Shown here one piece after another: positions 5,952 to 36,497 of a stretch of 64,000 nucleotides of DNA. Source of the DNA: Jannaschia aquimarina (GTDB lineage Bacteria > Pseudomonadota > Alphaproteobacteria > Rhodobacterales > Rhodobacteraceae); assembly GCF_000877395.1 (NCBI RefSeq), contig NZ_JYFE01000017.1, positions 124,001 to 188,000 on the forward strand, given 5' to 3'. How positions within the stretch are numbered: the first letter of the stretch is position 1; each line of letters opens with the position of its first letter. The translations under genes and the position numbers were made by a program. The notes under the pieces are model-generated. The model did not search any database. It saw only the letters and a program-made list of their open reading frames with translations, and was not told the DNA's origin.

Positions 5952-5956
5952 CGAAT

Positions 5957-5986
5957 GGGCCGCGGCAACCGTCCCCGCCGCGGCCT
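5957..5986 (+). terminator. Stem-loop after the molybdenum hydroxylase operon
   Basis: Perfect 8-base inverted repeat GGCCGCGG / CCGCGGCC (5958-5965 and 5978-5985) with a 12-base loop, six bases after the paoC-like stop codon. It is followed only by a weakly pyrimidine-rich stretch, so it is a plausible but not classical intrinsic terminator. Confidence 0.45.
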
Positions 5987-6102
5987 GCAGTTCCCGTCTT
6001 GCCGCAGGACCGACACGCAGACGTGACCGGCTCGCGGATCGCCGTCCTGGCCGTGGGGCTTCGATGGCGTCTTCCGTGATCCGGAATGGGCCGGGCAGAC
6101 GG

Positions 6103-14184: not shown

Positions 14185-15966
14185 ATGGCCGAAATCGCGA
14201 AGGCAGCAGATCGGGAAGGATCGAAGCAGGTCGGCAACCTGACCCGCCTTGCCCCATTCTTTCGCCCCTACCGCGTCATGCTGGCCGCCGCCCTGGGCGC
14301 GCTGGTCCTGACGGCGGCGGTCAGCCTGATCCTGCCTCTGGCCGTGCGCCGGGTTGTGGACGGGTTCGAGACCGGCGCCGAGGCGCTGCTGGACCAGTAT
14401 TTTGTCGCCGCGCTGGTCATCGCGGGGGCCTTGGCCATCGGGACGGGGCTTCGCTACTACCTCGTGACCCGCCTGGGCGAGCGGGTCGTGGCCGATATCC
14501 GCAAGGCGGTCTTCGGGCGCATGATCCGCATGTCGCCCGACTTCTACGACAATATCCTGACCGGCGAGGTGCTGAGCCGGATCACCACCGACACGACTTT
14601 GCTTCTGTCGGTGATCGGCTCGTCGGTCTCGGTCGCGCTGCGCAACGTGCTGATCTTCTCGGGCGGGCTGGTGATGATGCTCTGGACGGCGCCCAAGCTG
14701 TCGGGCCTCGTGCTTCTGATCGTCCCGGCCGTGATCGTGCCCATCGTGGTTCTGGGCCGCCGTCTGCGCAAGCTGAGCCGCGAGAACCAGGACTGGATCG
14801 CGGAATCCTCGGGTCGGGCCTCGGAATGGCTGCTCAGCGCGCAGACCGTGCAGGCCTATACCTACGAGGGCGAGGCGCAGCGCCGCTTCGACGCCGTGAC
14901 CGAGGACAGCTTCGGCTCCGCACAAAAGCGGATCGCGACGCGGGCCGTGATGACGGTCATCGTCATCAGCCTCGTCTTCGCCGGGATCGTGGGCGTGCTG
15001 TGGATCGGTGCGCGGGACGTCCGCGCCGAGGTCATGTCGATCGGCGAACTGATCCAGTTCCTGATCTATGCCATCATGGTCGCCGGATCGGTCGGCGCCC
15101 TGTCCGAGATCTGGGGCGAGCTCCAGCGCGCGGCCGGCGCCACGGAACGCCTGATCGAACTCCTGGAGGTTGAGGATGCGGTCCACGATCCGGCCTCCGG
15201 TCCGGCGCCCGCCCTGGGCGAGGGGATCCGGCTGGAAGGGGTCACGTTCCGCTATCCGGCCCGGCTCGAGACGGCCGCGCTGGACGGCATCGACCTGCAT
15301 GTGCGCCCCGGCGAGACGGTCGCGCTGGTCGGCCCTTCGGGAGCGGGCAAGTCGACGGTGATCCAGCTCCTGCAGCGGTTCTACGACCCGGATGTCGGTC
15401 GCGTGATCATCGGCGACACCGATCTCAGGGATGTCCCCCGCGCCGAGTTCCGCCACCTGATGGCGCTGGTGCCGCAGGACCCGGTCATCTTCGCCGCGTC
15501 GGCGCGCGACAATATCGCCTTCGGCCGCCCGGGCGCCACGGACGCGCAGATCGAGGCGGCGGCCAAGGCGGCGGCCGCGCACGACTTCCTGACGGCCCTG
15601 CCGCAGGGCTACGACACCTATGTCGGCGAGCGGGGCGTGATGTTGTCCGGCGGCCAGAAGCAGCGCATCGCCATCGCCCGTGCCATTCTGCGCGACGCCC
15701 CCGTCCTTCTGCTCGACGAGGCCACGAGCGCGCTGGACGCCGAAAGCGAGCGCGCCGTGCAGGACGCCGTCGAACGCCTGGCCGAGGGCCGCACCACCAT
15801 CATCGTCGCGCACCGCCTCGCCACCGTGAAGGCCGCGGACCGGATCGTCGTCATGGAAGACGGCCGCATCGTCGCAGAGGGCACCCATGACGAACTGGTC
15901 GCCGAAGGCGGCCTCTACGCGCGCCTCGCGCGGCTTCAGTTCACGGCCGGCATGGCGGCAGAATAG
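14185..15966 (+). CDS. ABC exporter, fused membrane and ATPase domains (MsbA/LapB-like)
   Basis: 593 residues. The ATG at 14185 follows GGAGGGGAC. The transmembrane domain covers about 25-320, with helices such as LAAALGALVLTAAVSLILPLAV. The ATPase domain covers about 345-590: Walker A GPSGAGKSTV, Q-loop LVPQDPVIF, signature LSGGQKQRIAIARA, Walker B VLLLDEATSALD and H-loop IIVAHRLATV. It works as a homo- or heterodimer exporting a lipid, peptide or drug; the substrate is not visible. The EbsC/MsbA-like half-transporter form is common in Rhodobacteraceae. It stands alone, divergent from the small membrane protein. Confidence 0.9.
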   Translation: MAEIAKAADREGSKQVGNLTRLAPFFRPYRVMLAAALGALVLTAAVSLILPLAVRRVVDGFETGAEALLDQYFVAALVIAGALAIGTGLRYYLVTRLGERVVADIRKAVFGRMIRMSPDFYDNILTGEVLSRITTDTTLLLSVIGSSVSVALRNVLIFSGGLVMMLWTAPKLSGLVLLIVPAVIVPIVVLGRRLRKLSRENQDWIAESSGRASEWLLSAQTVQAYTYEGEAQRRFDAVTEDSFGSAQKRIATRAVMTVIVISLVFAGIVGVLWIGARDVRAEVMSIGELIQFLIYAIMVAGSVGALSEIWGELQRAAGATERLIELLEVEDAVHDPASGPAPALGEGIRLEGVTFRYPARLETAALDGIDLHVRPGETVALVGPSGAGKSTVIQLLQRFYDPDVGRVIIGDTDLRDVPRAEFRHLMALVPQDPVIFAASARDNIAFGRPGATDAQIEAAAKAAAAHDFLTALPQGYDTYVGERGVMLSGGQKQRIAIARAILRDAPVLLLDEATSALDAESERAVQDAVERLAEGRTTIIVAHRLATVKAADRIVVMEDGRIVAEGTHDELVAEGGLYARLARLQFTAGMAAE

Positions 15967-16416
15967 GCAAGTCGGCAGGGACGGTGTCGAAGGGGCGTCG
16001 CGGCGTCGCCCCCTGGGCCCTGCTGGAGCGATCTCCGGTATTCGGCGTCGGCCTTGGGCTTCTCTCTCCCAGATCACAGCGCTGCTCAATCCTGATGGTC
16101 ACGAGCACTGATCGAGAAAAGAGAAGCGCGATCGAAGAACGACACTTCCGAAGAAATGACTGGGTATACGGGGAGCACCTAGAATCCGCGCGAACTCCTG
16201 GAGCTTGCGGCGGTTCATTCGGATGCGGCCAGATGACCGCAGGACGCGGGCGCCACGGGAAAACGGTCGTCACACGCACCGTAGCGCCTTTGCGCCGTCC
16301 ACGAGGCCGAGGTGACTTTGAATGCGTTTCCGCGTTTCGACGGTGAAACCCCCGCACGACTTACCGGCGGATGTCCGGGACTTCGGCGCCAGCGACGGCT
16401 CCCCCGGCGATTGGCG
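15967..16416. other. 450-base intergenic region, no gene seen
   Basis: This stretch lies between the convergent ABC exporter and GntR genes. Short open frames occur on both strands but have no ribosome site, no family likeness and poor codon pattern. Part of it (about 16080-16180) is less GC-rich than its surroundings. I see no tRNA, repeat or clear terminator. Confidence 0.5.
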
Positions 16417-17070
16417 TCAACCCGGCTTGCCCTCCGCGGAACCGGGAGTGTTGTCGCGGACGTGCTGCCAGGACGTGGCCCTCGCCTCGGCTGCGTCGCC
16501 CGAACGGATCGCGTCGATGATCGGGCGATGCGACTGAGCCAACCCGTACAGATCCGTGGCATTGCGGCGCACGTTCATGCGTGTGTGGCTGCGGACGTGC
16601 AGCCCGCGCCAAAGCTCGGCCAAGGTGGCGTTCCCGCCCGCCTCGACGATCGCGCTGTGGAACTCCGAGTTGAGTTCGGCGAACCGCTTCGAGTCGCTGG
16701 CCTCGGCCGCCTCGATCATCCGGTCGAGGACCGCATCCAGAACCGCGCTGATCTCCGGTGCAGCCTTCGCGGCCAACTCGCCGGCATATCCCTCCAACTC
16801 CGCACGGATGCCGTAGATCTCGGCCAGTTCCGCTTCCCCGACGATGCGGACGCGGGCCCCCCGGTTGCGGCGGATCTCGACGAGCCCGGCTGCTTCGAGT
16901 TCGCGTAGCGCCTCGCGCACGGGGGCTTGGCTGGTCCCCATCTCTTCGGCGACCTTGAGTTCGATGATCCGCTCGCCGGGCGGTAGGGAGCCGTCGAAGA
17001 TGCGCTCCATCAGCGCGTCCCTGATCTGTTCGGACAAGGAAGTCCTCTTGAGGACGTCGCCATCGGGCAT
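16417..17070 (-). CDS. GntR-family (FadR/FCD) transcriptional regulator
   Basis: 217 residues. The N-terminal winged helix (about 10-75) shows SLSEQIRDALMERIFDG, PPGERIIELKVAEEMGTSQAPVREALRELEAAGLVEI, the GntR signature. An FCD ligand domain follows (about 85-205), with metal-type ligand positions around ELNSEFHSAIVEAGGN and SHRPIIDAI. It is divergent from the first TTT transporter gene with 119 bases between starts, so it is the likely regulator of the 17190-27744 cluster. The effector is probably a small carboxylate, as usual for FCD regulators. The N-terminal Met at 17070 is the first reasonable start. Confidence 0.88.
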   Translation of the reverse strand: MPDGDVLKRTSLSEQIRDALMERIFDGSLPPGERIIELKVAEEMGTSQAPVREALRELEAAGLVEIRRNRGARVRIVGEAELAEIYGIRAELEGYAGELAAKAAPEISAVLDAVLDRMIEAAEASDSKRFAELNSEFHSAIVEAGGNATLAELWRGLHVRSHTRMNVRRNATDLYGLAQSHRPIIDAIRSGDAAEARATSWQHVRDNTPGSAEGKPG

Positions 17071-17090
17071 CGTTCGCTCCGCGCTTTTCT

Positions 17091-17110
17091 ATTGTTGAAC
17101 CTAGGACAAT
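17091..17110. promoter_or_regulatory. Inverted repeat ATTGT-N10-ACAAT in the GntR/tctB divergent region
   Basis: Five-base arms ATTGT (17091-17095) and ACAAT (17106-17110) flank ten bases containing a CCTAGG palindrome. It sits 20 bases upstream of the GntR start codon, in the only promoter region between the regulator and the TTT cluster. It is a candidate GntR operator by position and symmetry. Confidence 0.4.
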
Positions 17111-17135
17111 CGGAGACGGAAGAAAAGTCGATTGA

Positions 17136-17156
17136 CGATAATCGATAATTGATAGT
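17136..17156. repeat. Three 7-base direct repeats upstream of tctB
   Basis: CGATAAT (17136-17142) and CGATAAT (17143-17149) are identical and adjacent; TGATAGT (17150-17156) is a degenerate third copy. The stretch is strikingly AT-rich for this genome and lies 34-54 bases before the tctB ATG. It may contain -10-like sequence or a stacked binding site. Confidence 0.5.
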
Positions 17157-17189
17157 AGCGTCGGCCGGGAAACGTGTTGGGAGGCACGA

Positions 17190-17693
17190 ATGCCGGAACC
17201 GAAGCGAGTTCGGACAGCAGGGGAGAGAGGTGGGCCGGTCTCGGCGGGTCTTCTGTTCCACGGCATCGTCGCCGCGCTTTCGGCCGGTCTGTTTCTTTCG
17301 GTGCCCGCCCTCGTCGGCAATCCGGTCACCTTGTTCGGCGCGGCGCCCGAGGGCCTGTCCCCTGATGTGATGCCGCGCCTCGTCCTTGCCGGCGTCTTCG
17401 TCCTCGGCACGCTGGGCGCTCTGGCCGAGTGGCGGGAGGGCGGGGTGCGACCGGGCCTCCCATCGGTCAGGATGGCGATCACCGCGGCGGCCAGCTTCGC
17501 ATTCGCCGCAGCTTTGGTGCCGTTCGGTTTCCTGTTGGCCAGCGCGGCGATCGTCGCGGCGCTTGGGCTCTATCTCGGTGCGCGCCGCCCGATGCCGCTC
17601 CTGCTTGCCGCCGTGGTCGTGCCGGCTTTCGTCTATGTCGCATTCACGCGGGGATTGCACGTGGCGTTGCCCGCCGGCCCGCTGGGGTTCTGA
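17190..17693 (+). CDS. tctB: TTT transporter small membrane subunit TctB (system 1)
   Basis: 167 residues, four hydrophobic segments (about 19-45, 58-80, 95-120 and 128-160), the usual TctB size and pattern. The ATG at 17190 follows GGGAGG. With TctA and the periplasmic TctC it forms a secondary, ion-driven uptake system for a carboxylate-type solute. First gene of the cluster, divergent from the GntR regulator, and followed 3 bases later by tctA. Confidence 0.85.
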   Translation: MPEPKRVRTAGERGGPVSAGLLFHGIVAALSAGLFLSVPALVGNPVTLFGAAPEGLSPDVMPRLVLAGVFVLGTLGALAEWREGGVRPGLPSVRMAITAAASFAFAAALVPFGFLLASAAIVAALGLYLGARRPMPLLLAAVVVPAFVYVAFTRGLHVALPAGPLGF

Positions 17694-17696
17694 GCG

Positions 17697-19187
17697 ATGT
17701 GGGCCGAGCTTTTCTCGGGCCTCGAGATGGTCCTGCGCCCCGACACGGTGGCGATGACGGCGGCCGGGCTGCTGCTGGGGATCGCGGTCGGATCGCTGCC
17801 GGGCTTCACGACCGTGATGGCCATGGCGGTGCTGCTGCCGATCTCGTTCTTCCTCGATCCGCTGGTCGGAATCCCGTTCCTGATCGGCGTCTACAAGGGC
17901 GGCATCTACGGCGGCTCAATCCCGGCGATCCTGATTGGCGTGCCGGGCACCGGGGCTTCGGTCGCGACGACCTATGACGGCCCCGCGTTGGCACGGAAGG
18001 GCAAGTCGAAGAAGGCGCTGGAGATGGCGCTCTATGCGTCCGTCTTCGGCGATACGGCGTCGAGCCTCCTGACGATCCTGATGATCGGTCCCATCGCACT
18101 GGTCGCGATGCGGATCGGCCCGCCGGAACTGGCCGTGGTTCTGGCCGCCGCGATGGCGATCATCGCGGTGACGGCGAGCGGACCGGCGCGCAAGGGCATA
18201 CTTATGCTGGGCCTTGGATGCTTTGTCGCGCTGGTTGGGCAGGACCCGGTCCACGGCGTGAACCGCTTCACCTTCGACTTGTTCGCGCTCCAGGCCGGGA
18301 TCGACCTTCTGCCGCTCATCATCGGGCTCTTCGCCATTCCCGAGATCCTGCTCGCCGTCGAAGGCAAGCCGAAGGCCACCCCCGTCGCCCGTCCCGAAGG
18401 CGAGAGCCTGACCATGGCCGAGCTCCGCGCTTCGGGCCGCACGATCCTGCGCTCGACGGCGATCGGTGCGGGCATCGGCGCGATCCCGGGCGTAGGCCAG
18501 GTGGTTGCGGCCTTCATGGGGTACGCGGCCGCCCGCCGCGCGGCGCGCGACCCGTCCACGTTCGGGCATGGCGATCTGGACGGCGTTGCGGCGCCGGAGG
18601 CGGCCAACAACGCGGTCAACGGCCCGACCATGGTGCCGCTGCTGACGCTGGGCATCCCGGGCGACAACGTCACGGCGATCCTGCTGGGCGCCTTCGTGGC
18701 GCAGGGTCTGCGCCCCGGACCGCAGCTCTTCGCGACGGATGCGGCGACGATCTACGCGCTGCTCTTCTCGATGGTGATCGCCTGCATCCTGCTCTTGGTG
18801 CTGGGCCGCCTGACGATCCCGCTCTTCGCAAAGGTCGTCGCGATCCCGCGCGCCTACATGGTGCCGCTGACGCTCGTCTTCGCAGTGGCCGGGACCTACG
18901 TCTACCGCTCGAACCCCATGGATCTCGTGGTCCTGATGGGCTTCGGGCTGTTCGGCTACGCGGCCCGCAAGATGGCCTTCGACGTCACTCCGATGGTGAT
19001 GGGCTTCTTGCTGATAGGACCGTTCGAATACGCGGTCAGCCAGACGCTCTCGCTCTCGCGCGGGGATCTCGTCGGATACGTCGTGGCCGAGCGTCCCGTC
19101 ACCCTAATCCTGCTGGCGCTCATCGCCGCCGGGCTCGCTTTTATCGCGCTGCGCCGCAGGGGACCGCGCACCCCCGTCCAGACCTGA
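17697..19187 (+). CDS. tctA: TTT transporter large permease TctA (system 1)
   Basis: 496 residues, about 11-12 membrane helices. It carries the TctA motifs: LLLGIAVGSLPGFTTVMAMAVLLP near residues 24-50, YKGGIYGGSIPAILIGVPGTGAS near 65-90, and the repeat GAIPGVGQVVAAFMGYAAARRAA near 262-290, followed by EAANNAVNGPTMVPLLTLGIPGD. TctA is the transport channel that takes solute from TctC. It lies between tctB (3-base gap) and tctC (27-base gap). Confidence 0.93.
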   Translation: MWAELFSGLEMVLRPDTVAMTAAGLLLGIAVGSLPGFTTVMAMAVLLPISFFLDPLVGIPFLIGVYKGGIYGGSIPAILIGVPGTGASVATTYDGPALARKGKSKKALEMALYASVFGDTASSLLTILMIGPIALVAMRIGPPELAVVLAAAMAIIAVTASGPARKGILMLGLGCFVALVGQDPVHGVNRFTFDLFALQAGIDLLPLIIGLFAIPEILLAVEGKPKATPVARPEGESLTMAELRASGRTILRSTAIGAGIGAIPGVGQVVAAFMGYAAARRAARDPSTFGHGDLDGVAAPEAANNAVNGPTMVPLLTLGIPGDNVTAILLGAFVAQGLRPGPQLFATDAATIYALLFSMVIACILLLVLGRLTIPLFAKVVAIPRAYMVPLTLVFAVAGTYVYRSNPMDLVVLMGFGLFGYAARKMAFDVTPMVMGFLLIGPFEYAVSQTLSLSRGDLVGYVVAERPVTLILLALIAAGLAFIALRRRGPRTPVQT

Positions 19188-19214
19188 CACCGACACCCAA
19201 AGGGAGGAACGACC

Positions 19215-20174
19215 ATGCCATTCAAGACCTTCGCCAAGGGCCTCGCCGCCGGCCTCTTGGCCGCAGTGGCGGCCACCGCCGCACTGGCGGACTACCCCGA
19301 GAAACCGGTCACGATGATCATTCCGCTCGGCGCGGGAGGCAGTCATGACCTGAACGCGCGCGTCATCGCCAGCGTTCTGCCGACCTATCTGGGCCAACCG
19401 GTCATCGTGCAACTGATGCCCGGCTCCGCCGGTCAGATCGGTACGTCGGCCGCGGCCGAGGCTCCGGCGGATGGCTACACGATCCTCTTCACGCAGAACT
19501 TCATCGACCAACTCCAACAGCATGTCGCCGAACTGCCCTACGACCCGAACGAGGCCTTTGTCGCCGTCGCGCGGACCAACTTCGCCGCGCCGTCGGTCAT
19601 CGTGCGCAGCGACAGCGAATTCGCGACGATGGACGCCCTTCTGGCCAGCGCCAAGGCGGATCCCGGCGCGATGACGTTCGGCCATTCCGGAAACTGGGGC
19701 GCCTTCATGGTGCCGGGCGCGATGATGTTCAACGCGGCGGGCACAATGCCGACGCTGGTGCCGCACAAGGGGGGCGGCCCGGCGATGCAGGCGCTGCTGG
19801 CCGGCGATGTGGATGTCAGCCTGGCCTTCGATTCGGTCATCGCGAGCCAGGGCGACGCCGTGCGCCCGCTCCTGACGCTCGACCGCGAGGCGCATTACGA
19901 GGGCGTACCCACCGCCGCCGAGGCCGGGCTGGAAGGGCTCGAGGACACGTCGATCATGCATCGCGTCGTGCTCGTCCATCGGGATACGCCGCCCGAGGCG
20001 CTCGACAAGCTGCGCGCGGCTTTCGTCGCGATGCAGGAGGACAAGACCTACCAGAAGCTCCTGTCTTCGCTGGGCGAGAACGCCGCGTTCATGGGCGGGG
20101 CGGAGTACGAGCCGGTGCGCGCCGCGCAGGGCGAGGCCTACGGCACCCTCGTCCGCACGCTGACCGGACAGTGA
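19215..20174 (+). CDS. tctC: TTT transporter periplasmic binding protein TctC/Bug (system 1)
   Basis: 319 residues with a signal peptide cut near residue 25 (AALA|DYPEK). The mature protein starts YPEKPVTMIIPLGAGGSHDLNAR, the Bug/TctC opening, followed by PGSAGQIGTSAAAEAPADGYT and PHKGGGPAMQALLAGDVDVS. The pocket usually holds a carboxylate. The ATG at 19215 follows AGGGAGG. A stem-loop follows the gene, which may raise the level of this binding protein relative to the permease. Confidence 0.9.
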   Translation: MPFKTFAKGLAAGLLAAVAATAALADYPEKPVTMIIPLGAGGSHDLNARVIASVLPTYLGQPVIVQLMPGSAGQIGTSAAAEAPADGYTILFTQNFIDQLQQHVAELPYDPNEAFVAVARTNFAAPSVIVRSDSEFATMDALLASAKADPGAMTFGHSGNWGAFMVPGAMMFNAAGTMPTLVPHKGGGPAMQALLAGDVDVSLAFDSVIASQGDAVRPLLTLDREAHYEGVPTAAEAGLEGLEDTSIMHRVVLVHRDTPPEALDKLRAAFVAMQEDKTYQKLLSSLGENAAFMGGAEYEPVRAAQGEAYGTLVRTLTGQ

Positions 20175-20182
20175 CCACATCC

Positions 20183-20213
20183 GGGCGTCCGGCCGCCGGG
20201 CCGGTCGCCGCCC
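20183..20213 (+). terminator. Stem-loop after tctC-1, inside the cluster
   Basis: Inner stem CCGGCC / GGCCGG (20189-20194 and 20199-20204) with loop GCCG, and an outer stem GGGCG / CGCCC (20183-20187 and 20209-20213). No T tract follows, and the next gene starts at 20230. It is more likely an mRNA-stabilising or attenuating hairpin than a full stop. Confidence 0.45.
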
Positions 20214-20229
20214 GACCTCGGAGCGACAC

Positions 20230-21159
20230 ATGACCCTCACCCTCACCTTCGGCGGATACCAGGGCCCCGGCTCCGTCCATACCCGCGGTGGCCACGCGCT
20301 GGCCGACGAGGTCGCGCGCCGGACGGGCGGACAGATCGTCCTGCGGTTCCAAGAGAACGTGACCGACGGGGGGCGGCCCGCGACGGACCTGTTGACGGAG
20401 GTCGAGGCGGGCGAGATGGACGGCTGCTACTTCGCCTCGTCCTATCTGGCCGGTCGGATCCCGGAACTGGAGGTGCTGGACCAGCATTTCCGCGTCCCGG
20501 ACCGGGCCGAGGCCTATGCGCGGCTTGACGGCGCGTTGGGTGACCGCCTCGCATCGCTGATTGCGGCGCGGACGGGCTTCACGGTGCTGGGCTGGTGGGA
20601 CAACGGGTTCCGCCACATCTCGGCCGCCGTCCCACTTCTGGCGCCGGAAGCGTGTAGCGGACTCACGATCCGCACCCTGTCGAGCGACCAGCACGAGATC
20701 GCGTTCCAGGCTCTCGGCTTCCGGACGCGGCGGACCGATGTCCGCGACCTCGCCGCGGCGGTGCGCGACGGGACGGTCGACGCTCAGGAGAACCCGCTCA
20801 CCAACATCTACAATTTCGGCCTGCACGAAACCCATCGTCACGTCGTTCTGACGCGCCACCTGCTCGGCGTGGCGCCGGTCCTCTTCAACGCGGCGCGCCT
20901 CGCCGCGCTTTCTGCGGACCTCCGCACGCGGCTTGCCGAGGCCGTCGCCGCCGCCACCGAGGCGCAGCGGCGCTTCGCCACCGAGGACGACGCCGCCTGC
21001 GCTGCCGCCCTGCGCGCCGAGGGCGTCACGCTCCACGACCTGACCGATGCCGAGCGGGCCCGCTTCGCCGCGGCCGTCGCCCCGGCGGTCGACCGGCTGC
21101 GCGCGCGGATCCCCCGCGACCTCCTCGCCCTCTTCGACGCCGACATGGCGCCCGCCTGA
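20230..21159 (+). CDS. TRAP DctP-type solute-binding protein without signal peptide
   Basis: 309 residues with the fold pattern of TRAP periplasmic binding proteins: TLTFGGYQGPGSVHTRGGHALADEVAR at the start, the ligand-arginine segment GLTIRTLSS near 155, and QENPLTNIYNFGLHETHRHVVLTRH near 195-225. It begins directly with the first beta strand, MTLTLTFGG, and has no hydrophobic signal. The ATG at 20230 follows CGGAG, and no upstream in-frame start restores a signal. No dctQ/dctM genes are adjacent; it is flanked by TTT and enzyme genes. It may bind the pathway's solute or an intermediate in the cytoplasm, but this is inference. Confidence 0.82.
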   Translation: MTLTLTFGGYQGPGSVHTRGGHALADEVARRTGGQIVLRFQENVTDGGRPATDLLTEVEAGEMDGCYFASSYLAGRIPELEVLDQHFRVPDRAEAYARLDGALGDRLASLIAARTGFTVLGWWDNGFRHISAAVPLLAPEACSGLTIRTLSSDQHEIAFQALGFRTRRTDVRDLAAAVRDGTVDAQENPLTNIYNFGLHETHRHVVLTRHLLGVAPVLFNAARLAALSADLRTRLAEAVAAATEAQRRFATEDDAACAAALRAEGVTLHDLTDAERARFAAAVAPAVDRLRARIPRDLLALFDADMAPA

Positions 21160-21178
21160 CAGACCGAAAGGATCCGAC

Positions 21179-22330
21179 ATGCCCGATTCCGGCCTCATGC
21201 CAGAGCCCAGCCTCACCGTTCCCGAGACGATGCGCGCCTGGGTCCTCGGCGGCCCCGACGAGATGCGCCTGACCGAGAAGCCTGTGCCCGTGCCCGGCCG
21301 CGGCGAAGTGCTGATCCGCATCGACGCCGTCGCGATCTGCGCCACCGATCTGGAGATCATCCATTACGGCACGCCAGCGTTGGTCGACGGAGAGCCCCCA
21401 TTCAACAAGGACTTCACCATCGGGCACGAATACATGGGGACCGTTGCTGCCCTCGGCCCCGGCGTGGACGAGGTGGCGGTGGGCCAGCGCGTGACGGTCG
21501 AGGTCCATGCCGGCTGCGGTCAATGCAAGCGGTGTCGGCAGGGCATGTACACGTCCTGTCACAATTACGGGCAGCGCGCGAAAGGACATAGGGCGAATGG
21601 CTTCACCACCGACGGGGGCTTCGCGGAATATGCCGTGAACCACGTGAACACGATCATCCCCGTCCCCGATCGGATGACCGACGAGGAAGCGACACTGGTG
21701 GTCACGGCGGGGACGTCGATGTACGGGCTGACCGAGCTGGGCGGCTTGGTCGCGGGCGAGAGCTGCGTCGTCTCGGGGCCCGGAGCAATCGGGCTGCTGG
21801 CGGTGGCCGTGGCGCGCAGCCTGGGCGCCTATCCGGTGATCCTGACAGGCACCCGCGAAAGCCGGTTGGAGATCGGCCGCAAGCTTGGCGCCACCCACAC
21901 GGTGAATGTCCGCGAGGCCGACACCGTCGAGGCGGTCCGCGCCATCGTCGGCGACAAGGGCGCCGACTACGTTATCGAGTGCGCCGGGACAGAGGCCGCG
22001 ATCAACGACGCGATCCGCATGACGAACCGGGGTGGAAAGGTCTGTCTTGCGGGCTTCCCGCACGACATGGCGACCGTGGACCTGCCGCATGTCGTGAAGA
22101 ACAACATCTACCTCTACGGCATCCGGGGCGAGGGCCGCTCGGCCACTCATCGCGCGATGCAGCTGATGGCCGACCGCCGCTTCGATGCGACGCTGATCCA
22201 CACCCACACCTTCGCGCTCCAGGACCTGCCCGAGGCGCTGCGCCACGCGCGCGAGCGGGTGGACGATGCGATCAAGGTCGTCGTGAAGGCCCGCGGCGCC
22301 GCCGCATTGTGTCAGGAGGCCGCGGAATGA
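21179..22330 (+). CDS. Zinc-dependent alcohol/polyol dehydrogenase (MDR family)
   Basis: 383 residues of the medium-chain dehydrogenase family. Catalytic-zinc ligands lie in AICATDLEII (Cys, about 52) and FTIGHEYMG (His-Glu, about 82). The structural-zinc loop is CGQCKRCRQGMYTSC (about 109-123) with four cysteines. The NAD(P)-binding motif is VVSGPGAIGLLAVAVARSLGA (about 197-217). Its nearest look is threonine/sorbitol-type dehydrogenase; the substrate is not assigned. The ATG at 21179 follows AAAGGA. The stop overlaps the next gene by ATGA, so it is coupled to the DapA-family enzyme and probably acts in the same pathway. Confidence 0.88.
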   Translation: MPDSGLMPEPSLTVPETMRAWVLGGPDEMRLTEKPVPVPGRGEVLIRIDAVAICATDLEIIHYGTPALVDGEPPFNKDFTIGHEYMGTVAALGPGVDEVAVGQRVTVEVHAGCGQCKRCRQGMYTSCHNYGQRAKGHRANGFTTDGGFAEYAVNHVNTIIPVPDRMTDEEATLVVTAGTSMYGLTELGGLVAGESCVVSGPGAIGLLAVAVARSLGAYPVILTGTRESRLEIGRKLGATHTVNVREADTVEAVRAIVGDKGADYVIECAGTEAAINDAIRMTNRGGKVCLAGFPHDMATVDLPHVVKNNIYLYGIRGEGRSATHRAMQLMADRRFDATLIHTHTFALQDLPEALRHARERVDDAIKVVVKARGAAALCQEAAE

Positions 22331-23247
22331 AGGCCCGCAGAGGCGTCTACGCCGCCGCCATCACGCCGCTTGGTCCCGACGGCCGCCCGGACACAGGGAA
22401 GCTCGTCGCGTATTGCAAGCGGCTGATCGCGGACGGGCTCGACGGGGTGGCCCCGGTGGGGACCACCTCCGAGGGCAACTCGACCCCGATGGACTGGCGG
22501 CTCCGCCTGCCGGAGGCGCTGGCCGAGGGTGGGATCGCAGGGGACCGCGTGATCCTCGGCACCGGCGCCTGCGCGATGGACGACGCGGCGGCCCTGTCGA
22601 AGGCGGCGCTCGACGCGGGCTTCCCGAACGTGCTGGTCCTGCCGCCGTTCTATTACAAGAACGTCAGCGATGAGGGCCTCTTCGCCGCGTACGCGCGGCT
22701 CATCGAGAGGGTCGGGTCCGACGCCCTGCGCGTCTACCTCTACCATTTCCCGCAGATGTCCCAGACCCCGATCTCGGTGGCGCTGGTCCAGCGGCTCAAG
22801 GCCGCGTTCGGGCCCGTGATCGCAGGCCTCAAGGACAGCTCCGGCGATTACGCGGGCAGCCTCGCCTTCGCCGAAGCGGCGGACGACTTCGATGTCTTCC
22901 CATCCAACGAGGGCGTTCTCGTCGACGCCCTGGCGCGGGGCTGCGGCGGGGTGATCTCGGCAACGACCCAGGTCGCTCCGGGCCTCGTGCGTCGCACGCT
23001 GGAGGCCTCTGGCGCGGATCGAGACCGCCTCCAAGCGCTGCTTACAGAGGTCCGGAAGGCGGTCTCGGCCTACCAGCTCATGGCGGCCGTGAAGGAGGTC
23101 GAGGCGCTCCGCTCCGGCGATCCGGCCTGGCGCGCCGTCTTGCCGCCGCTCGTGTCTCTGACCGAGGCGCAGCGCGCGGGTCTCGCCCGCGACCTCGCGG
23201 CCCTGCCCGCCGAAGCGGGCATCGCGACCCAGATCGAACCCGCCTGA
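22327..23247 (+). CDS. DapA/dihydrodipicolinate-synthase-family lyase or aldolase
   Basis: 306 residues, a TIM-barrel Schiff-base enzyme. The family motif VGTTSEG is at 44-50, the catalytic Tyr at 139 in YLYHFP, and the Schiff-base Lys at 169 in AGLKDSSGD. True DapA is usually about 290 residues and sits elsewhere. The catabolic setting suggests a 2-keto acid aldolase or dehydratase instead, such as the KDG or 4-hydroxy-2-oxoglutarate group, but the substrate cannot be fixed. The ATG at 22327 overlaps the dehydrogenase stop. Confidence 0.88.
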   Translation: MKARRGVYAAAITPLGPDGRPDTGKLVAYCKRLIADGLDGVAPVGTTSEGNSTPMDWRLRLPEALAEGGIAGDRVILGTGACAMDDAAALSKAALDAGFPNVLVLPPFYYKNVSDEGLFAAYARLIERVGSDALRVYLYHFPQMSQTPISVALVQRLKAAFGPVIAGLKDSSGDYAGSLAFAEAADDFDVFPSNEGVLVDALARGCGGVISATTQVAPGLVRRTLEASGADRDRLQALLTEVRKAVSAYQLMAAVKEVEALRSGDPAWRAVLPPLVSLTEAQRAGLARDLAALPAEAGIATQIEPA

Positions 23248-23260
23248 GAGGAGACGAGAC

Positions 23261-23710
23261 ATGTCCAATATCGAAGTGCTGGAACGCCCCTCCGACGGCG
23301 ACAACCCCCGCGCCCACTGGCCGCAGGCGATGCAGGACGAGTTGGCCGAGGGCCATGCCAACGGCGTCGTCGGCTCGATCCTCGTCAGCGAGACAGACCG
23401 CGTCCGGGTCTGGCACCTGCACCTGCCGCCGGGCAAGCGGTGCGCGTTCCATACCCATGTGCTGAACTACTTCTGGTCCTGTCACAGTCACGGAACGGCG
23501 CGCGGATATTACGATGATGGCCGCATTCAGGACGTGCGGCACTATCCGGGCGAGACGAAGCATTTCGAGTTCCCGAAGGGGACCAGCTTCACCCATTCCG
23601 TCGAGAATGTCGGCGAAACCGACCTGCTCTTCACCACCGTCGAGTTTCTCGACAGCCCCAACGACCCGCTGCCGATCCCCGACAGCGCGCGTCTGGTGCA
23701 TCCCGACTGA
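23261..23710 (+). CDS. Cupin-domain protein
   Basis: 149 residues, one cupin barrel. The metal-site pattern is visible in HLPPGKRCAFHTHVLNYFWSCHSHG (His at about 66-68 and 76) and FEFPKGTSFTHSVENVG (His at 114). It is probably a small metal-dependent enzyme, isomerase or sensor. It follows the DapA-family gene after a 13-base gap with GAGGAGA. The role in the pathway is unknown; it could isomerise or decarboxylate a pathway acid. Confidence 0.75.
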   Translation: MSNIEVLERPSDGDNPRAHWPQAMQDELAEGHANGVVGSILVSETDRVRVWHLHLPPGKRCAFHTHVLNYFWSCHSHGTARGYYDDGRIQDVRHYPGETKHFEFPKGTSFTHSVENVGETDLLFTTVEFLDSPNDPLPIPDSARLVHPD

Positions 23711-23774
23711 GGGACGCATCCAACCGGCCGCCCGGGAGGAGACCATAGGCGGCCCCGAACGACCGGAGACGACG

Positions 23775-24584
23775 ATGACCAGATACTCGAACCCCCTTGG
23801 GGGACTGGCGGCGGCGTGCCTGCTGGCAGCCCCTGCCTTGGCCGACGTGGAGTTGAAGGACGGCACGATCCTGTCCGACGCGCCGACCTTCATTGTGACC
23901 TATATCGAGGGCGACGCCGCGCGCGCCGACGAGATGCTCTCGCTGATCAAGGGACAGGCCGAGGCGAGCGCAGGCCATGACGGGCTCCTGCGGTTCGAGG
24001 GCCTGCAGCGGATGGGCCAGCCCGGCCATTTCGTGATCCTGGAGGCCTGGGAGGGCCCGGAGGCCCGGGCCGCCCACGCGGCCGCGCCCGAGACGGTTGC
24101 CTTCCGCGAGGCTTTGGAGCCGATGCTCTACGCCCCCTACGACGAGCGTCCGCATGTCGGGCTGGTGGCCGCCAGCCTCTCCGAGATGCCTGCGGGCGAT
24201 GCCGACACCGTCTATGTCGTCACCCATGCCGATATCATTCCACCCGAACAGTTCGCCCCGTGCGAGCGGCAGGTGAACCCCGCCGGGCCCTGCGGCAACG
24301 ACATGCTGACCGCCCTCGCCGAGTTCAGTCGCGATCACGACGGAAACATGCGCTACGATGTGCTGACCCAGTCCAACCGCTCGAACCACATGAGCGTGGT
24401 CGAGATGTGGACCGACGCCGCCGCGCAGGCCGCCCACCAGATGACACCCGAGAAGAAGGCGTTCCGCAACGAGCTGTCGGGCATCCCGGCCGAGGGCGGC
24501 GTGAACCCCGATCCGCAATTCGTCCTGAACATGCTGACCGGCAGCCTGTGGGACGAGCGGCTCTACACCCTCGTGACCGACTGA
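23775..24584 (+). CDS. Exported protein with two ABM (antibiotic biosynthesis monooxygenase-like) domains
   Basis: 269 residues from the ATG at 23775. The signal peptide ends at about residue 23 (AAPALA|DVELKDG). Two copies of the ABM-like ferredoxin fold follow. The first spans about 35-120 and contains FIVTYIEGDAARADEMLSLI and HFVILEAWEGPEARAAH. The second spans about 140-235 and contains VYVVTHADIIPPEQF, NHMSVVEMWTDAAAQAAHQ and KKAFRNELS. Two cysteines (QVNPAGPCGND and CERQ) may form a disulphide. ABM proteins are normally cytoplasmic small monooxygenases, so a secreted tandem form in a transport cluster is unusual. It precedes the second TTT system. Confidence 0.75.
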   Translation: MTRYSNPLGGLAAACLLAAPALADVELKDGTILSDAPTFIVTYIEGDAARADEMLSLIKGQAEASAGHDGLLRFEGLQRMGQPGHFVILEAWEGPEARAAHAAAPETVAFREALEPMLYAPYDERPHVGLVAASLSEMPAGDADTVYVVTHADIIPPEQFAPCERQVNPAGPCGNDMLTALAEFSRDHDGNMRYDVLTQSNRSNHMSVVEMWTDAAAQAAHQMTPEKKAFRNELSGIPAEGGVNPDPQFVLNMLTGSLWDERLYTLVTD

Positions 24585-24591
24585 CGATCGC

Positions 24592-24618
24592 GGCCCCGCG
24601 CCGGGTGGGCGCGGGGCC
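24592..24618 (+). terminator. Strong GC stem-loop between the ABM gene and tctC-2
   Basis: Perfect 11-base inverted repeat GGCCCCGCGCC / GGCGCGGGGCC (24592-24602 and 24608-24618) with a five-base loop, nine bases after the ABM stop. There is no T tract. It divides the cluster into 17190-24584 and 24643-27744 and may act as an attenuator or processing/stability element. Confidence 0.55.
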
Positions 24619-24642
24619 TCCAGAGACCGGAGGAGACCCAGA

Positions 24643-25719
24643 ATGCAAACCAGACGCGACATCCTCGCGGGGCTCGGCGCCGCCGCGACCCTCACCATCG
24701 CCCCCCGCGCGGGCGCCCAGGGCTGGCCCGGCCAGCCGATCACCCTAGTGGTGATGTACGGCCAGGGGGGCGGCACCGATACGATCATGCGTACGCTCGC
24801 CGCCGAGATGGCCGCAGCGAAAGGTTGGACGATCAACGTCGTCAACAAACCCGGCGCCGTGGGCGCCGTGGCGACCGAATATGTCGCGGGCCGCGAAGCG
24901 GACGGCCATGTTCTTCTGGGCGCGGCCAATTTCAACAAGTTCGTCCGCGTCATGGGCCATGTCGACGCGAAGCCGTGGGAGCAATGGTCCTATCTTCAGG
25001 CCGCCTCTGCGCTCGGATCCTGGGCAGTGCCCGTCGACAGCCCGTTCGAGACCCTGCAGGACGTGATCGACGCCGCCAGGGCCGAGCCGGGCCGGATCGC
25101 CATCTCGACCTCGGGAACCGGCGGCGTGTGGCACGAACTGGCGCTGATCGTCGCCGACGCGGCCGGGATCGAACTGGCCTACGTCCCCTACAAGGGCGGC
25201 AAGGCCGCCACGCTGGCGGGCCTCCAGGGCGAAGTCGATGTCGCCGGCGGCGGCGTGCACGAGCATGTCGACCTGATCCGCGCGGGCCAGCTACGCTGCC
25301 TGCAGCAGATGGGGACCGAGGACATCGTGCTCGATGACGGCCAGGTGCTGCCGTCCGTGGGCGGCCTCCTGCCCTCGCTCGCCCCACTCCTTCCGCTCGG
25401 GCCGCAATACAACCTCGTGCTGCGCCGTGACACGCCGCCCGCCGTCATGGCCGAGATCGAGGAAGCCTTCGCCGCCGCCGTCGCGTCCGACGCTTTCCAG
25501 CAGATCGCGGCATCGAAGTACTTCAACGTGGAGATGCTGACCGGCGAGGCGGCCGACCGCCGCGCCGCCCAACTCGAGGCGATCACGGCGGCGACCTTCA
25601 CGAAATACGCCGACAAGATCGGTGCCCCCGTGCGCTCGCCCGCCGAGTTGGACCTGCCGGAGCCCGCCGCCTTCGACGGCTGGTGGCCCCCGCAGGGCTA
25701 CACCCCGCCGGGCACCTGA
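24643..25719 (+). CDS. tctC: TTT transporter periplasmic binding protein TctC/Bug (system 2)
   Basis: 358 residues. The N terminus QTRRDILAGLGAAATLTIAPRAGAQ has a twin-arginine motif and is a likely Tat signal, cut near residue 26. The body shows the Bug motifs: WPGQPITLVVMYGQGGGTDTIMRTLAAEM, NKPGAVGAVATEYVA and VPYKGGKAATLAGLQGEVDVAGGG. It is longer than tctC-1 (319) because of a C-terminal extension. The ATG follows CCGGAGGAG. Its stop overlaps tctB-2 by one base. Confidence 0.9.
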   Translation: MQTRRDILAGLGAAATLTIAPRAGAQGWPGQPITLVVMYGQGGGTDTIMRTLAAEMAAAKGWTINVVNKPGAVGAVATEYVAGREADGHVLLGAANFNKFVRVMGHVDAKPWEQWSYLQAASALGSWAVPVDSPFETLQDVIDAARAEPGRIAISTSGTGGVWHELALIVADAAGIELAYVPYKGGKAATLAGLQGEVDVAGGGVHEHVDLIRAGQLRCLQQMGTEDIVLDDGQVLPSVGGLLPSLAPLLPLGPQYNLVLRRDTPPAVMAEIEEAFAAAVASDAFQQIAASKYFNVEMLTGEAADRRAAQLEAITAATFTKYADKIGAPVRSPAELDLPEPAAFDGWWPPQGYTPPGT

Positions 25720-26255
25720 TGGCGGCGCCTCTCCCCGTCGCCGAGGAAGAGGGGGCCGGCCCCGCGACGGCCGCCCTCGACCTCCTCTCGGCCGCGATCC
25801 TGCTCGCCCTGGGCCTCGGCTTTGCCGGCCTGTCGCTGGCGCTGCCTGTTCCCGATGGCTGGCGGTCGGCGCCGGGTCTCTTACCCTTCCTCGTCTCGGC
25901 ATCGCTTGCCGTCATGGCCCTGATGCTGGCCATGTCGGCCTGGCCCCGGCGGGGGCGGGGCGGCGCCATTCCGGTCCTGCTGGATGCGGAGAGGGCGGGT
26001 CGGGCCACCGTCCTCGTGGCTACGCTCACCTATGTGGGCGCGCTCGACATGCTGTCGCTGGAGGGCTTCGTTCCGATCCTCGGCGCGCAGATCCCCATGG
26101 GCGGGTTCGAGCCGTGCACGATCCTCCTGCTGACCGTGTTGCTGCGGATCTTCTGGACCGAGCGTCTCTGGGCCTGCCTCGCGGTCGCGGCGGGCTGGAC
26201 GCTGACGCTGTCGCTCTCTTTCCGGGTGCTGTTCGGCATCCCACTGCCCGGGTGA
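25719..26255 (+). CDS. tctB: TTT transporter small membrane subunit TctB (system 2)
   Basis: 178 residues. The start at 25719 overlaps the tctC-2 stop (TGATG). Four hydrophobic segments: about 20-45, 52-74, 88-112 and 130-165. It is longer at the N terminus than tctB-1 and its sequence is clearly diverged, so system 2 is not a recent duplicate of system 1. tctA-2 starts 4 bases after its stop. Confidence 0.82.
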   Translation: MAAPLPVAEEEGAGPATAALDLLSAAILLALGLGFAGLSLALPVPDGWRSAPGLLPFLVSASLAVMALMLAMSAWPRRGRGGAIPVLLDAERAGRATVLVATLTYVGALDMLSLEGFVPILGAQIPMGGFEPCTILLLTVLLRIFWTERLWACLAVAAGWTLTLSLSFRVLFGIPLPG

Positions 26256-26259
26256 CGCC

Positions 26260-27744
26260 ATGCTCGATGCCTTCGCGACCCTGATGGATCCGCTCCTGCT
26301 CGCCGTCACTTTGGCCGGGGTCACGCTAGGCATCGTCTGGGGCGCGCTGCCGGGCCTGTCGACCACGATGGCGATGGGTCTGCTGATCGGGCTGACGGCG
26401 TCCTTGGACCAGAACCCGGCGCTCTGCTTCATGCTGGGCGTCTATACCGGGTCGGTCTTCGGCGGCGCGATCTCCGCCGTCCTGATCGCCATCCCCGGCA
26501 CGCCCGACGCGGTGCCGACGATGATCGAGGGCACGGCCTTGGCCAGAAAGGGCGAGGGCGGGCAGGCGCTCGGCATGGCCATCGCTGCGTCGTTCGTGGG
26601 CAATTGGGTGGGGATCGGGCTGCTGATCCTGTTCATCCCGATGCTACTGGGCTTCGCGCTCAGCTTTCGGTCCTACGAGATGTTCATGCTGGCGATGCTG
26701 GGCATCCTCGTCTGCGGCTCGATGTCGGCGGGGGCCAGCCCGGTCAAGGGCTGGATCGCGGGGTGGCTGGGGCTCCTGATGGCCTTCGTGGGGCTGGACC
26801 CGATCAACGGCGTGCCGCGCTTCACCTTCGGAGTGCGGGCGTTGGAGGATGGCCTCTCTTACGTGGCGATCCTGATCGGGGTCTTCGGCCTGACCGAGAT
26901 CCTCAAGACCCTGCCCGCCGCCCCGGACCGGCCCGCGCCGCCCGTGGCGGGCCGCGTGATCCCGCCGCTGGCGAAGCTCATGCGCCACCTCTGGGCTGCG
27001 ATCCGCTCCTCGGTGATCGGCACGCTCGCGGGGGCGGTGCCCGGCGCAGGCGCCAACGTGGCGAGCTTCCTGGCCTACGACATCGGCCGCAGGTGGGCCA
27101 AGCCGGAGGAGCGGGCGAAGTGGGGCAAGGGCAGCTACGAGGCGATCGTCTGTGCCGAGACGGCGAACAACGCCAACATAGGCGGCTCGATGCTGCCCAC
27201 GCTGGCGCTCGGCATTCCGGGCAACGCCCCGGCGGCGGCCCTGATCGCGGCACTCCAGCTCAAGGCGGTGAATGTGGGTCCCACCATCGAGATCGACCAT
27301 CCGGGGCTGATCTGGTTCATCTACGCCGCGCTGATCGTCGCCAACCTCTTCATGTTCGGCGCCGCGCTGGCGCTGATCAAACCCTGCGTGAAGCTCTTCG
27401 CCCTGCCGCGGGGGCTGCTGCTGTCGCTGATCCTGCCGGTCTGCGTGCTGGGCGCATGGTCGGTACGGCTGTCGCTTTTCGACGTCTGGGTGATGGTGGC
27501 GGCCGGGGTCGCCGGCTACGCGCTGGTGGCTGCGCGTTTCCCGGTGGCGCCTGTCGTCTTGGGCGTCATCCTCGCGCCGCTCGCCGACGAGAATCTGCGC
27601 CGCACGCTGATGATCTTCGACCGTCGCGGGCTCGACTACGCGGCGGATCAGTGGATCGGGCACGTGCTGGTGCTTGCCTTCCTGCTGGTCCTGGCGGAGA
27701 GCGCCATCCGGGTCGTCCGCAAGCGCCGCGAGATCCGACGCTGA
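26260..27744 (+). CDS. tctA: TTT transporter large permease TctA (system 2)
   Basis: 494 residues with the TctA layout: LGIVWGALPGLSTTMAMGLLIGL at about 23-45, YTGSVFGGAISAVLIAIPGTPDAVPT at 64-90, AGAVPGAGANVASFLAYDIGRRWA near 258-282, then CAETANNANIGGSMLPTLALGIPGNAPAA. The same motifs occur in tctA-1 but with many changes, which suggests a different solute or an old divergence. Last gene of the ten-gene cluster; a 237-base gap follows. Confidence 0.92.
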   Translation: MLDAFATLMDPLLLAVTLAGVTLGIVWGALPGLSTTMAMGLLIGLTASLDQNPALCFMLGVYTGSVFGGAISAVLIAIPGTPDAVPTMIEGTALARKGEGGQALGMAIAASFVGNWVGIGLLILFIPMLLGFALSFRSYEMFMLAMLGILVCGSMSAGASPVKGWIAGWLGLLMAFVGLDPINGVPRFTFGVRALEDGLSYVAILIGVFGLTEILKTLPAAPDRPAPPVAGRVIPPLAKLMRHLWAAIRSSVIGTLAGAVPGAGANVASFLAYDIGRRWAKPEERAKWGKGSYEAIVCAETANNANIGGSMLPTLALGIPGNAPAAALIAALQLKAVNVGPTIEIDHPGLIWFIYAALIVANLFMFGAALALIKPCVKLFALPRGLLLSLILPVCVLGAWSVRLSLFDVWVMVAAGVAGYALVAARFPVAPVVLGVILAPLADENLRRTLMIFDRRGLDYAADQWIGHVLVLAFLLVLAESAIRVVRKRREIRR

Positions 27745-34094: not shown

Positions 34095-34766
34095 CTATTC
34101 CGCGGCCTGACGCAGGCTTGCGATCAGGTGGTGAAACTTCTCGCCCTGCACCGTGACATGGGCGCGGATCGCATCGGCCGCGGCTGTGGCATCCCCGTCC
34201 TCCAGCGCGGCGACGATCGCGCGATGCTCGCCCAGCGACTGACGGAGTCGGCCGCGCAGGCGAAGCTGCCTTCGCCGGAACGGGCGCAGGCGGCGTTGCA
34301 GGCGCAGGCATTCGCGCTCGAGAAACCCGTTGCCGGACTGGGCGTAGACCGCCGCGTGAAAGCGCTCGTTCTCGTCGTAGTACCTGTCGGCATCCCGTTC
34401 CCGCACCGCATCGTCCGAGCGTCGGTTCAGGTCCTTCAGCAGGTCGAGCGCCTCGTCCGTGATGCGGCCGGCGGCGAGGCGGGCGGCGGCGGCTTCGAGT
34501 TCCGCCATCACCTCAAACATCTCGATCAGTTCGATCGGGCCCGGCTGGCGCACGAAGGCGCCCCGGCGGGGAAGCTGCCGCACGAGCCCGGACTGGGCGA
34601 GGCGCTGGAAAGCCTCGCGCACCGGCGTGCGGGAGACGCCGTATTGCTCCGCGATCCGGACCTCGTCGAGGCGGTCGCCATCCGAGAAGACGCCGTCGAA
34701 GATCAACCCTTCGAGGGCCGCCGCGACGCGGTCGGCCTGCGTGTCCTGAGGGGCGGTCGGTTCCAT
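34095..34766 (-). CDS. matR: GntR-family regulator of malonate genes, MatR-like
   Basis: 223 residues. GntR winged helix (about 10-75): RVAAALEGLIFDGVFSDGDRLDEVRIAEQYGVSRTPVREAFQRLAQSGLV. FCD domain (about 90-210): ELEAAAARLAAGRI, ENERFHAAVYAQSGN and HRAIVAALEDGD. The ATG at 34766 is divergent from the malonate TRAP operon, with a palindromic site between them. In Rhizobium the same arrangement holds for MatR, a malonate-responsive repressor. Confidence 0.85.
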   Translation of the reverse strand: MEPTAPQDTQADRVAAALEGLIFDGVFSDGDRLDEVRIAEQYGVSRTPVREAFQRLAQSGLVRQLPRRGAFVRQPGPIELIEMFEVMAELEAAAARLAAGRITDEALDLLKDLNRRSDDAVRERDADRYYDENERFHAAVYAQSGNGFLERECLRLQRRLRPFRRRQLRLRGRLRQSLGEHRAIVAALEDGDATAAADAIRAHVTVQGEKFHHLIASLRQAAE

Positions 34767-35900: not shown

Positions 35901-35907
35901 CCCGGAC

Positions 35908-35929
35908 GGGCGGGCCCCAGGGTCCGCCC
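35908..35929 (+). terminator. Stem-loop after matP
   Basis: Arms GGGCGGGCCC (35908-35917) and GGGTCCGCCC (35920-35929) pair with one G-U, seven bases after the matP stop. There is no T tract. It is likely to stabilise the matP message and keep binding-protein levels above those of the permease. Confidence 0.5.
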
Positions 35930-35948
35930 CAGCCGAAAGGGGCGTGAC

Positions 35949-36494: not shown

Positions 36495-36497
36495 GCG

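Follow-up and report, generated by a model that had tools for sequence, protein, structure and literature searches.

A Jannaschia aquimarina gene cluster that pairs two diverged tripartite tricarboxylate transporters with a DctP-fold protein without a detectable signal peptide

The window analysed here, a stretch of 64,000 nucleotides of Jannaschia aquimarina (contig NZ_JYFE01000017.1, positions 124,001 to 188,000 of the forward strand), contains a cluster in which the genes of two tripartite tricarboxylate transporters (TTT) enclose a small group of putative catabolic genes. Of the importers that depend on a binding protein, TTT systems belong to the less studied ones, and the solute is known for few of them. 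Pfam searches and the open reading frames (ORFs) of the window place a divergent GntR/FCD regulator gene ahead of a run of 11 co-directional genes up to position 27744 (12 when gntR1 is counted), in the order tctB1-A1-C1, a dctP-type gene, adh, dapA, cupin, double-ABM and tctC2-B2-A2. A first-pass annotation of this DNA had counted ten genes, a figure that has to be corrected; the gene families, their order, their single direction and the divergent regulator that it described stand, Pfam recovering all of them except the cupin. The features are as follows.

16417 to 17070, minus strand: gntR1, divergent GntR/FCD regulator (Pfam FCD 7e-26, GntR 3e-16)
17138 to 17149, no strand: predicted GntR1 operator ATAATCGATAAT, one mismatch against ATTATCGATAAT (site search)
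17190 to 17693, plus strand: tctB1, small TTT membrane subunit (Pfam TctB 1e-12)
17697 to 19187, plus strand: tctA1, large TTT membrane subunit (Pfam TctA 5e-128)
19215 to 20174, plus strand: tctC1, TTT binding protein with Sec-type N-terminus (Pfam TctC 2e-33; no twin-arginine match)
20230 to 21159, plus strand: gene of the DctP-fold protein, signal peptide not detectable (Pfam DctP 1e-49)
21179 to 22330, plus strand: adh, zinc dehydrogenase of threonine/sugar-alcohol type (Pfam ADH_N, ADH_zinc_N)
22327 to 23247, plus strand: dapA-family Schiff-base lyase (Pfam DHDPS 5e-29)
23261 to 23710, plus strand: small cupin (without Pfam match; profile search against the PDB)
23775 to 24584, plus strand: exported double-ABM protein (Pfam ABM, two stretches)
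24643 to 25719, plus strand: tctC2, TTT binding protein with twin-arginine type signal (Pfam TctC 2e-23; motif)
25719 to 26255, plus strand: tctB2, its ORF opening at 25683 (Pfam TctB 1e-8)
26260 to 27744, plus strand: tctA2 (Pfam TctA 6e-122)

With corrected starts for the ABM gene (23775) and adh (about 21179), the intergenic gaps from tctB1 to tctA2 are 3, 27, 55, 19, -4, 13, 64 and 58 bases, an overlap, and 4 bases. The overlap depends on the start of tctB2, for which the ATG at 25719, sharing one base with the tctC2 stop, is likelier than the GTG at 25683. The gene 3' of tctA2 encodes an AMP-binding enzyme, and the cluster end was set at tctA2 because this gene gave no match at that place in Marivita hallyeonensis, the sole relative of the same order. 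Between 16300 and 28100 no sigma-70-like sites were found, and terminator-like sites numbered 6 versus 4.1 expected.

Both TTT sets are complete by Pfam, each with its TctA, TctB and TctC genes, and they share 34% identity for TctA, 32% for TctB and 30% for TctC, bearing out the first-pass description of two whole, non-identical copies. The genome encodes five TctA proteins, and TctA1 and TctA2 resemble each other (34%) no more than they resemble the three others (34-39%), which argues strongly against a recent or local duplication. The accompanying statement that TTT systems are normally single has to be narrowed, given five TctA here and another two of them lying near each other; what remains of it is that a conserved pairing of these types is unusual. 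That other pair occupies positions 34837-55538 of contig C37 of the same genome (G000; loci L134 and L135). Its TctA genes lie on opposite strands with ~18 kb between them, a TctC-like gene near each and a GntR-like match in the interval; neither a gene of the DctP-fold family nor the operator was found between the two. Two TTT systems within 20 kb are not by themselves rare in this genome, the unusual part being the conserved pairing of these two types.

Relatives were gathered by running an alignment built from six DapA relatives against genome contigs. The best 80 of 240 loci were retained (designated L; genomes are designated G), and many of these stop at contig ends. From 48 of these loci a set of 45 genomes was obtained, two pairs of loci sharing a genome and L064 being left out. 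With E <= 1e-110 as the cut-off for TctA orthologues, TctA1 was found in 31 genomes, TctA2 in 22 and both in 21, leaving 10 of the 31 with TctA1 and without TctA2. When both are present they share a contig within 21.3 kb in 19 of the 21 genomes, and are ~4.2 kb apart in 10 of those; G323 and G340 carry them on different contigs. TctA2 orthologues are 67-82% identical. Since the 45 genomes had been selected through DapA, the test was repeated on 295 genomes drawn evenly from the family of the window, its own genome included. TctA1 occurs in 10 and TctA2 in 5 of them, all five carrying TctA1 on the same contig; excluding the own genome, 4 of 4 TctA2 genomes carry TctA1, with a hypergeometric chance of ~4e-7 when kinship is ignored. 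These counts show two predicted TTT systems of separate lineages being kept together. The first-pass annotation had staked its reading on the two not lying apart and unlinked from the enzymes in relatives; that reading survives the check, because the TctA types co-occur in relatives and lie near each other there. One further locus, L040, displays a tandem pair of tctC2 genes before a single tctB2-A2 set (4204-6564).

Regarding gene order, the adh, cupin and DctP-fold families were mapped in 55, 38 and 26 of the 80 loci, respectively. One mapping of gene families misses some genes where ORFs overlap, including the window's own dapA and ABM genes. The Marivita hallyeonensis locus (L034) reads gntR, tctB1-A1-C1, dctP, adh, dapA, ABM and tctC2-B2-A2, that is, the order of the window minus the cupin only. 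The part from gntR to ABM is also present in Salaquimonas (L035, whose contig ends at that point) and Roseibium (L039). Twenty regions around the TctA pair were mapped as well, with tctB1, which is poorly conserved, mostly uncalled. Eleven of them (L114 to L123, L132) present the order tctC2, tctB2, tctA2, Gfo/Idh, dctP, tctA1 and tctC1, tctC2 being often preceded by a CMD gene. Five others (L125, L128 to L131) have genes of both TTT systems at the two ends of an island with GntR, GST, adh, dapA, a TRAP (tripartite ATP-independent periplasmic) transporter set, DUF1330, a quinone reductase, Gfo/Idh and a tartronate-semialdehyde-reductase-like gene. The window and Marivita form a compact variant, in which the TTT systems enclose adh-dapA and Gfo/Idh is lacking from both.

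A dapA relative was found in 13 of the 295 family genomes, in 4 of the 5 with TctA2 and in 5 of the 10 with TctA1; because of these last two fractions, the link to the enzymes is real yet looser than that between the TTT systems. The proposal that transporters and pathway are one unit is supported by the TTT pair, with adh-dapA near it in a good part of the relatives, and holds more loosely for the enzymes. Taken together, the loci and genome counts show that genes for the predicted zinc dehydrogenase and DapA-family lyase accompany the TTT pair in many genomes, not in all. Plasmid-borne spread was also considered and rejected, a search of 72,556 plasmid records with the DctP-fold protein giving no match at 1e-40. 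Two observations on flanking genes may be added. In L034, tctA2 is followed by an opposite-strand TauE/SafE exporter and then by an operon with a predicted operator (14994-18814), encoding a 238-residue protein without Pfam match, a 2-hydroxyacid dehydrogenase and an LVIVD-repeat protein. SAR116-type loci such as L091 and L095 combine dapA-cupin-adh with two pirins, a hemerythrin and an AEC-type permease, no TTT or TRAP genes occurring in the stretch examined.

The two binding proteins differ in their predicted export signals. Both TctC have hydrophobic N-termini, which together with the twin-arginine pattern predict periplasmic export. This pattern was found in TctC2 in 14 of 15 family members and 19 of 19 fetched regions, the single miss (L069) having a start that seems misplaced, versus 0 of 16 and 0 of 16, respectively, in TctC1. 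The two sets overlap in genomes; a receptor was counted only if at least 8 codons preceded its match, and L073 has a TctC1 whose start is missing. As judged by motif, the asymmetry between a Sec-type TctC1 and a twin-arginine TctC2 is strong.

The protein encoded between tctC1 and adh has the DctP fold, its model (pLDDT 94) being superposed by Foldseek on TRAP receptors with a TM-score of about 0.9. Its first residues, MTLTLTFGGYQGPGSVHTRG, already belong to the mature fold, and upstream of them the reading frame either is closed or contains no usable signal. In N-terminal hydrophobicity, all 26 members assessed (that of the window and those of 25 relatives) stay below the level of the controls, namely TRAP receptors and TctC of the same loci. 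These controls score at least 1.5, apart from three (L045, L069, L073) in which the start seems to be misplaced or missing. The nearest approach is that of L034, at 1.38 if an upstream start is used. These signal tests are crude, consisting of a hydrophobicity score and a regular expression. The family comprises 27 proteins (26 loci and the window), the L084 fragment, which lacks the motif, standing outside the 26; TctA lies in the same locus in 24 of the 27, window included, the exceptions being L056, L065 and L084.

Arg148 of the DctP-fold protein is invariant in 20 members, as are the GYQG and WDNG motifs, and it aligns with the arginine of the GLKMRT/GLKIRT motif in three solved TRAP receptors; from its position, we take it to be the counterpart of Arg-147 of SiaP. 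According to an excerpt of PMC4646407 (PMC, PubMed Central), this SiaP residue selects carboxylates, and the arginine is present in 5943 of 6142 DctP sequences. No DctQ or DctM partner was found among the genes at 16417-27744, so that of the traits of a TRAP receptor the fold and the carboxylate arginine are present, and a signal peptide and DctQ/DctM partners are not. The label of TRAP-type binding protein given in the first-pass annotation fits the fold, but not an ordinary TRAP receptor, since no signal peptide is detected. Considering that (i) the arginine is intact and (ii) no signal peptide was detected, the protein should still bind a carboxylate, and do so on the inner side of the membrane. 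A signal-less binding-protein family is not without precedent, because a passage of PMC9602780 notes that some cytosolic proteins matching binding-protein profiles do other jobs. Both the signal-less DctP-fold protein and the confinement of the twin-arginine pattern to TctC2 recur in relatives and had gone unmentioned in the first reading. Elsewhere in the window, at 34911-37814, Pfam identifies the DctP, DctQ and DctM genes of a TRAP set distinct from this cluster, with a GntR-like match adjoining it at 34320-34736.

As for the enzymes, the best PDB matches of adh are L-threonine 3-dehydrogenases, its nearest types being threonine and sugar-alcohol dehydrogenases. The dapA product scores 93.7 bits versus an NCBIfam dapA cut-off of 206.15, and is by that cut-off a member of the DapA family, not DapA itself. 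Its residues Y139, K169 and T46-T47 are invariant in six relatives; we take K169 to be the Schiff-base lysine and Y139 the catalytic tyrosine, and the pair by which a lyase of the DHDPS superfamily is recognised is present. The cupin has no Pfam match, yet in the PDB a profile built from six relatives finds a cupin_2 protein as well as oxalate decarboxylases, in support of the original assignment; it lies beside dapA in 6 of the 22 genomes having it.

The double-ABM gene was considered as a defining gene and rejected, being present in only 2 of the 295 family genomes and 1 of 20 genomes of the genus, with the own genome in both counts; in G211, the second of the two family genomes, it is on another contig than dapA-cupin. 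Upstream of this stand-alone gene (L009, 1411-2470) lie four tandem, near-identical small genes for ~70-residue peptides with a signal-like start, and the ABM gene is itself preceded by TTGGTCAACCAA palindromes, a palindrome for which the window has no site even with 2 mismatches allowed. ABM and DUF1330 are small alpha-beta barrel types. Exported double-ABM and DUF1330 proteins never share a locus among the 80, ABM occurring in three (L034, L035, L039), and the two may be interchangeable, one replacing the other.

To our knowledge, no substrate has been measured for any member of these clusters. From the neighbours in relatives (Gfo/Idh, tartronate-semialdehyde-reductase-like and threonate-dehydrogenase-like genes, all below NCBIfam cut-offs), we infer that polyhydroxy acids are the probable substrates. 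An alginate pathway was rejected, alginate lyases and the dehR, kdgK and eda families not being among the eleven genes. A sulfoquinovose pathway, prompted by HIBADH/sulfolactaldehyde-reductase-like genes in relatives and by an excerpt of PMC10755693, is a weak idea.

FCD regulators usually respond to carboxylates. The gntR1 family occurs in 8 of the 80 loci, and each of the 9 loci that carry gntR1, counting the window, has a predicted operator next to it. The predicted operator of the window, at 17138 in the divergent region, departs by one base from the palindrome ATTATCGATAAT, and at up to 2 mismatches the only other site in the window is an overlapping one at 17131. Across the 80 loci, 33 operator-like sites with at most 1 mismatch were found versus a mean of 2 in five Markov sequences. 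L034, L035 and L039 have two extra predicted operators directly before adh, which together with those at gntR1 would tie TTT-1 and the enzymes of these loci to one regulator. The window has no second predicted operator before adh at up to 2 mismatches, and a lone operator is consistent with one long transcript. Further predicted operators precede the first gene of the L034 operon ending in the LVIVD-repeat gene, the LVIVD-repeat gene of L039, a threonate-dehydrogenase-like gene (L037) and Gfo/Idh in five SAR116-type loci.

On balance, these features make it probable that the cluster is a GntR/FCD-controlled operon for the uptake and breakdown of one or two related acidic, probably carbohydrate-like solutes, with a cytosolic DctP-fold protein. 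TctAB1 and TctAB2 would receive from TctC1 and TctC2 carboxylates that are identical or closely related; the zinc dehydrogenase would oxidise a hydroxyl of the imported acid, and the DapA-family lyase would form a Schiff base through its lysine to split the resulting 2-keto acid, with auxiliary steps left to the cupin and ABM proteins. The DctP-fold protein would remain in the cytosol and bind the incoming acid as buffer, carrier or sensor. A bolder form, in which the paired TTT systems and the DctP-fold protein make one composite transport device, with receptors assembled via different export routes and a TRAP-class receptor accepting, holding or reporting the acid on the cytosolic side, is doubtful at present; if true, it would be, as far as we know, the first case of a TTT system served by binding proteins on either side of the membrane.

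Several observations weigh against the operon as proposed. Among the 22 TctA2 genomes, G318 is the only one with TctA2 and without TctA1; the 45-genome set was chosen via the DapA protein; and the two tests overlap, the contig coordinates of G151 and G213 in the 295-genome draw being identical to those of G324 and G345 in the 45-genome set. Gfo/Idh, found between the TTT systems in 11 regions, is absent from the window, 5 of the 10 TctA1 genomes of the 295 have no dapA relative at the cut-off, and G245 has both TTT systems and likewise no such relative. An arginine pair rejected by the pattern is present in the TctC1 of L077/L120 and of L124, and 5 of the 33 operator-like sites fall within genes located apart from this set (L060, L087, L101, L102, L104).

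Other explanations differ in what they make of the second transporter and of the DctP-fold protein. The two TTT systems may, as the first-pass annotation suggested, take different solutes or differ in affinity. Two solutes and two jobs, the TTT systems importing chemically different acids of one mixture and sharing a locus since both acids come with the same food, is a tentative possibility: TctC1 and TctC2 are only 30% identical and have different export signals, and the ten genomes with TctA1 alone imply that TTT-1 can work by itself, but TctA2 without TctA1 in only 1 of 22 suggests dependence and not mere company. That the pair is a local duplication kept for dosage would account for the same three families at both ends of the cluster and is nonetheless hardly credible, considering the identities of TctA1 and TctA2 to the three other TctA of the genome and gene orders that differ (B-A-C versus C-B-A).

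Regarding the DctP-fold protein, it is unlikely to have turned into a cytosolic enzyme of the pathway. The lack of a signal peptide, the GYQG and WDNG motifs invariant in 20 members, a gene often adjoining Gfo/Idh or adh, and the other-job cytosolic proteins noted in PMC9602780 would fit such a role; however, its model is an ordinary TRAP receptor fold, the W-x-NGFRH-like stretch and the arginine also occur in solved periplasmic receptors, and nothing indicates a new active site. Very unlikely is that it serves as receptor for one TTT, reaching the periplasm signal-less, for example by twin-arginine co-export bound to TctC2. Its intact arginine, the signal type that TctC2 fits and its nearly constant place beside a TTT speak for this, while G211 has the DctP-fold protein and TctA1 with no TctA2 at 1e-110 (TctC2 was not searched genome-wide), and no precedent for a signal-less co-export receptor was found in searches of open-licence PMC papers.

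Under the preferred reading, a GntR/FCD-controlled uptake and catabolic operon, the conserved TTT pair and its internal DctP-fold partner lend themselves to studying the need of one cell for two such transporters and the role of a substrate-binding protein in its interior, and the predicted operator with the recurring enzymes defines a testable regulon in marine Alphaproteobacteria. Neither paired TTT systems nor a TTT-linked cytosolic DctP protein was recognised from titles and abstracts of open-licence PMC papers, which agrees, within that literature, with the initial judgement that the system is undescribed.

Among known systems, the alginate-oligosaccharide TTT of Vibrio sp. C42 (PMC13390454) and the Halomonas TctABC for galactarate/glucarate (PMC5812351) likewise lie in acid-sugar loci, the former with GntR-type regulators; the excerpts of these papers name one TTT for each locus, and a DapA-family lyase, a DctP-fold protein and a second TTT go unmentioned there. 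The sulfolactate TTT SlcHFG of Roseovarius nubinhibens, as given in an excerpt of PMC5812351, is likewise that of a roseobacter. A likeness to it is also seen in an Ldh2 protein near relatives' clusters, whose best score, below cut-off, is to L-sulfolactate dehydrogenase, the difference being that the Ldh2 type is unmatched in the window (sulfolactate lyase genes were not searched for). The TRAP receptors 4p9k/4pak, 4pdh and 4p47 and the sugar-acid receptor DctPAm (7bbr) have fold and carboxylate arginine in common with the DctP-fold protein; they are, however, exported parts of TRAP transporters, whereas the latter has no detectable signal and no DctQM in its cluster. A further parallel is TAXI-GltS of Bordetella pertussis (excerpt of PMC12344293), where, as here, a binding protein of one class goes with a transporter that is not its usual partner; there a TAXI protein is combined with GltS, and here the DctP-fold protein stands instead beside complete TTT systems with receptors of their own.

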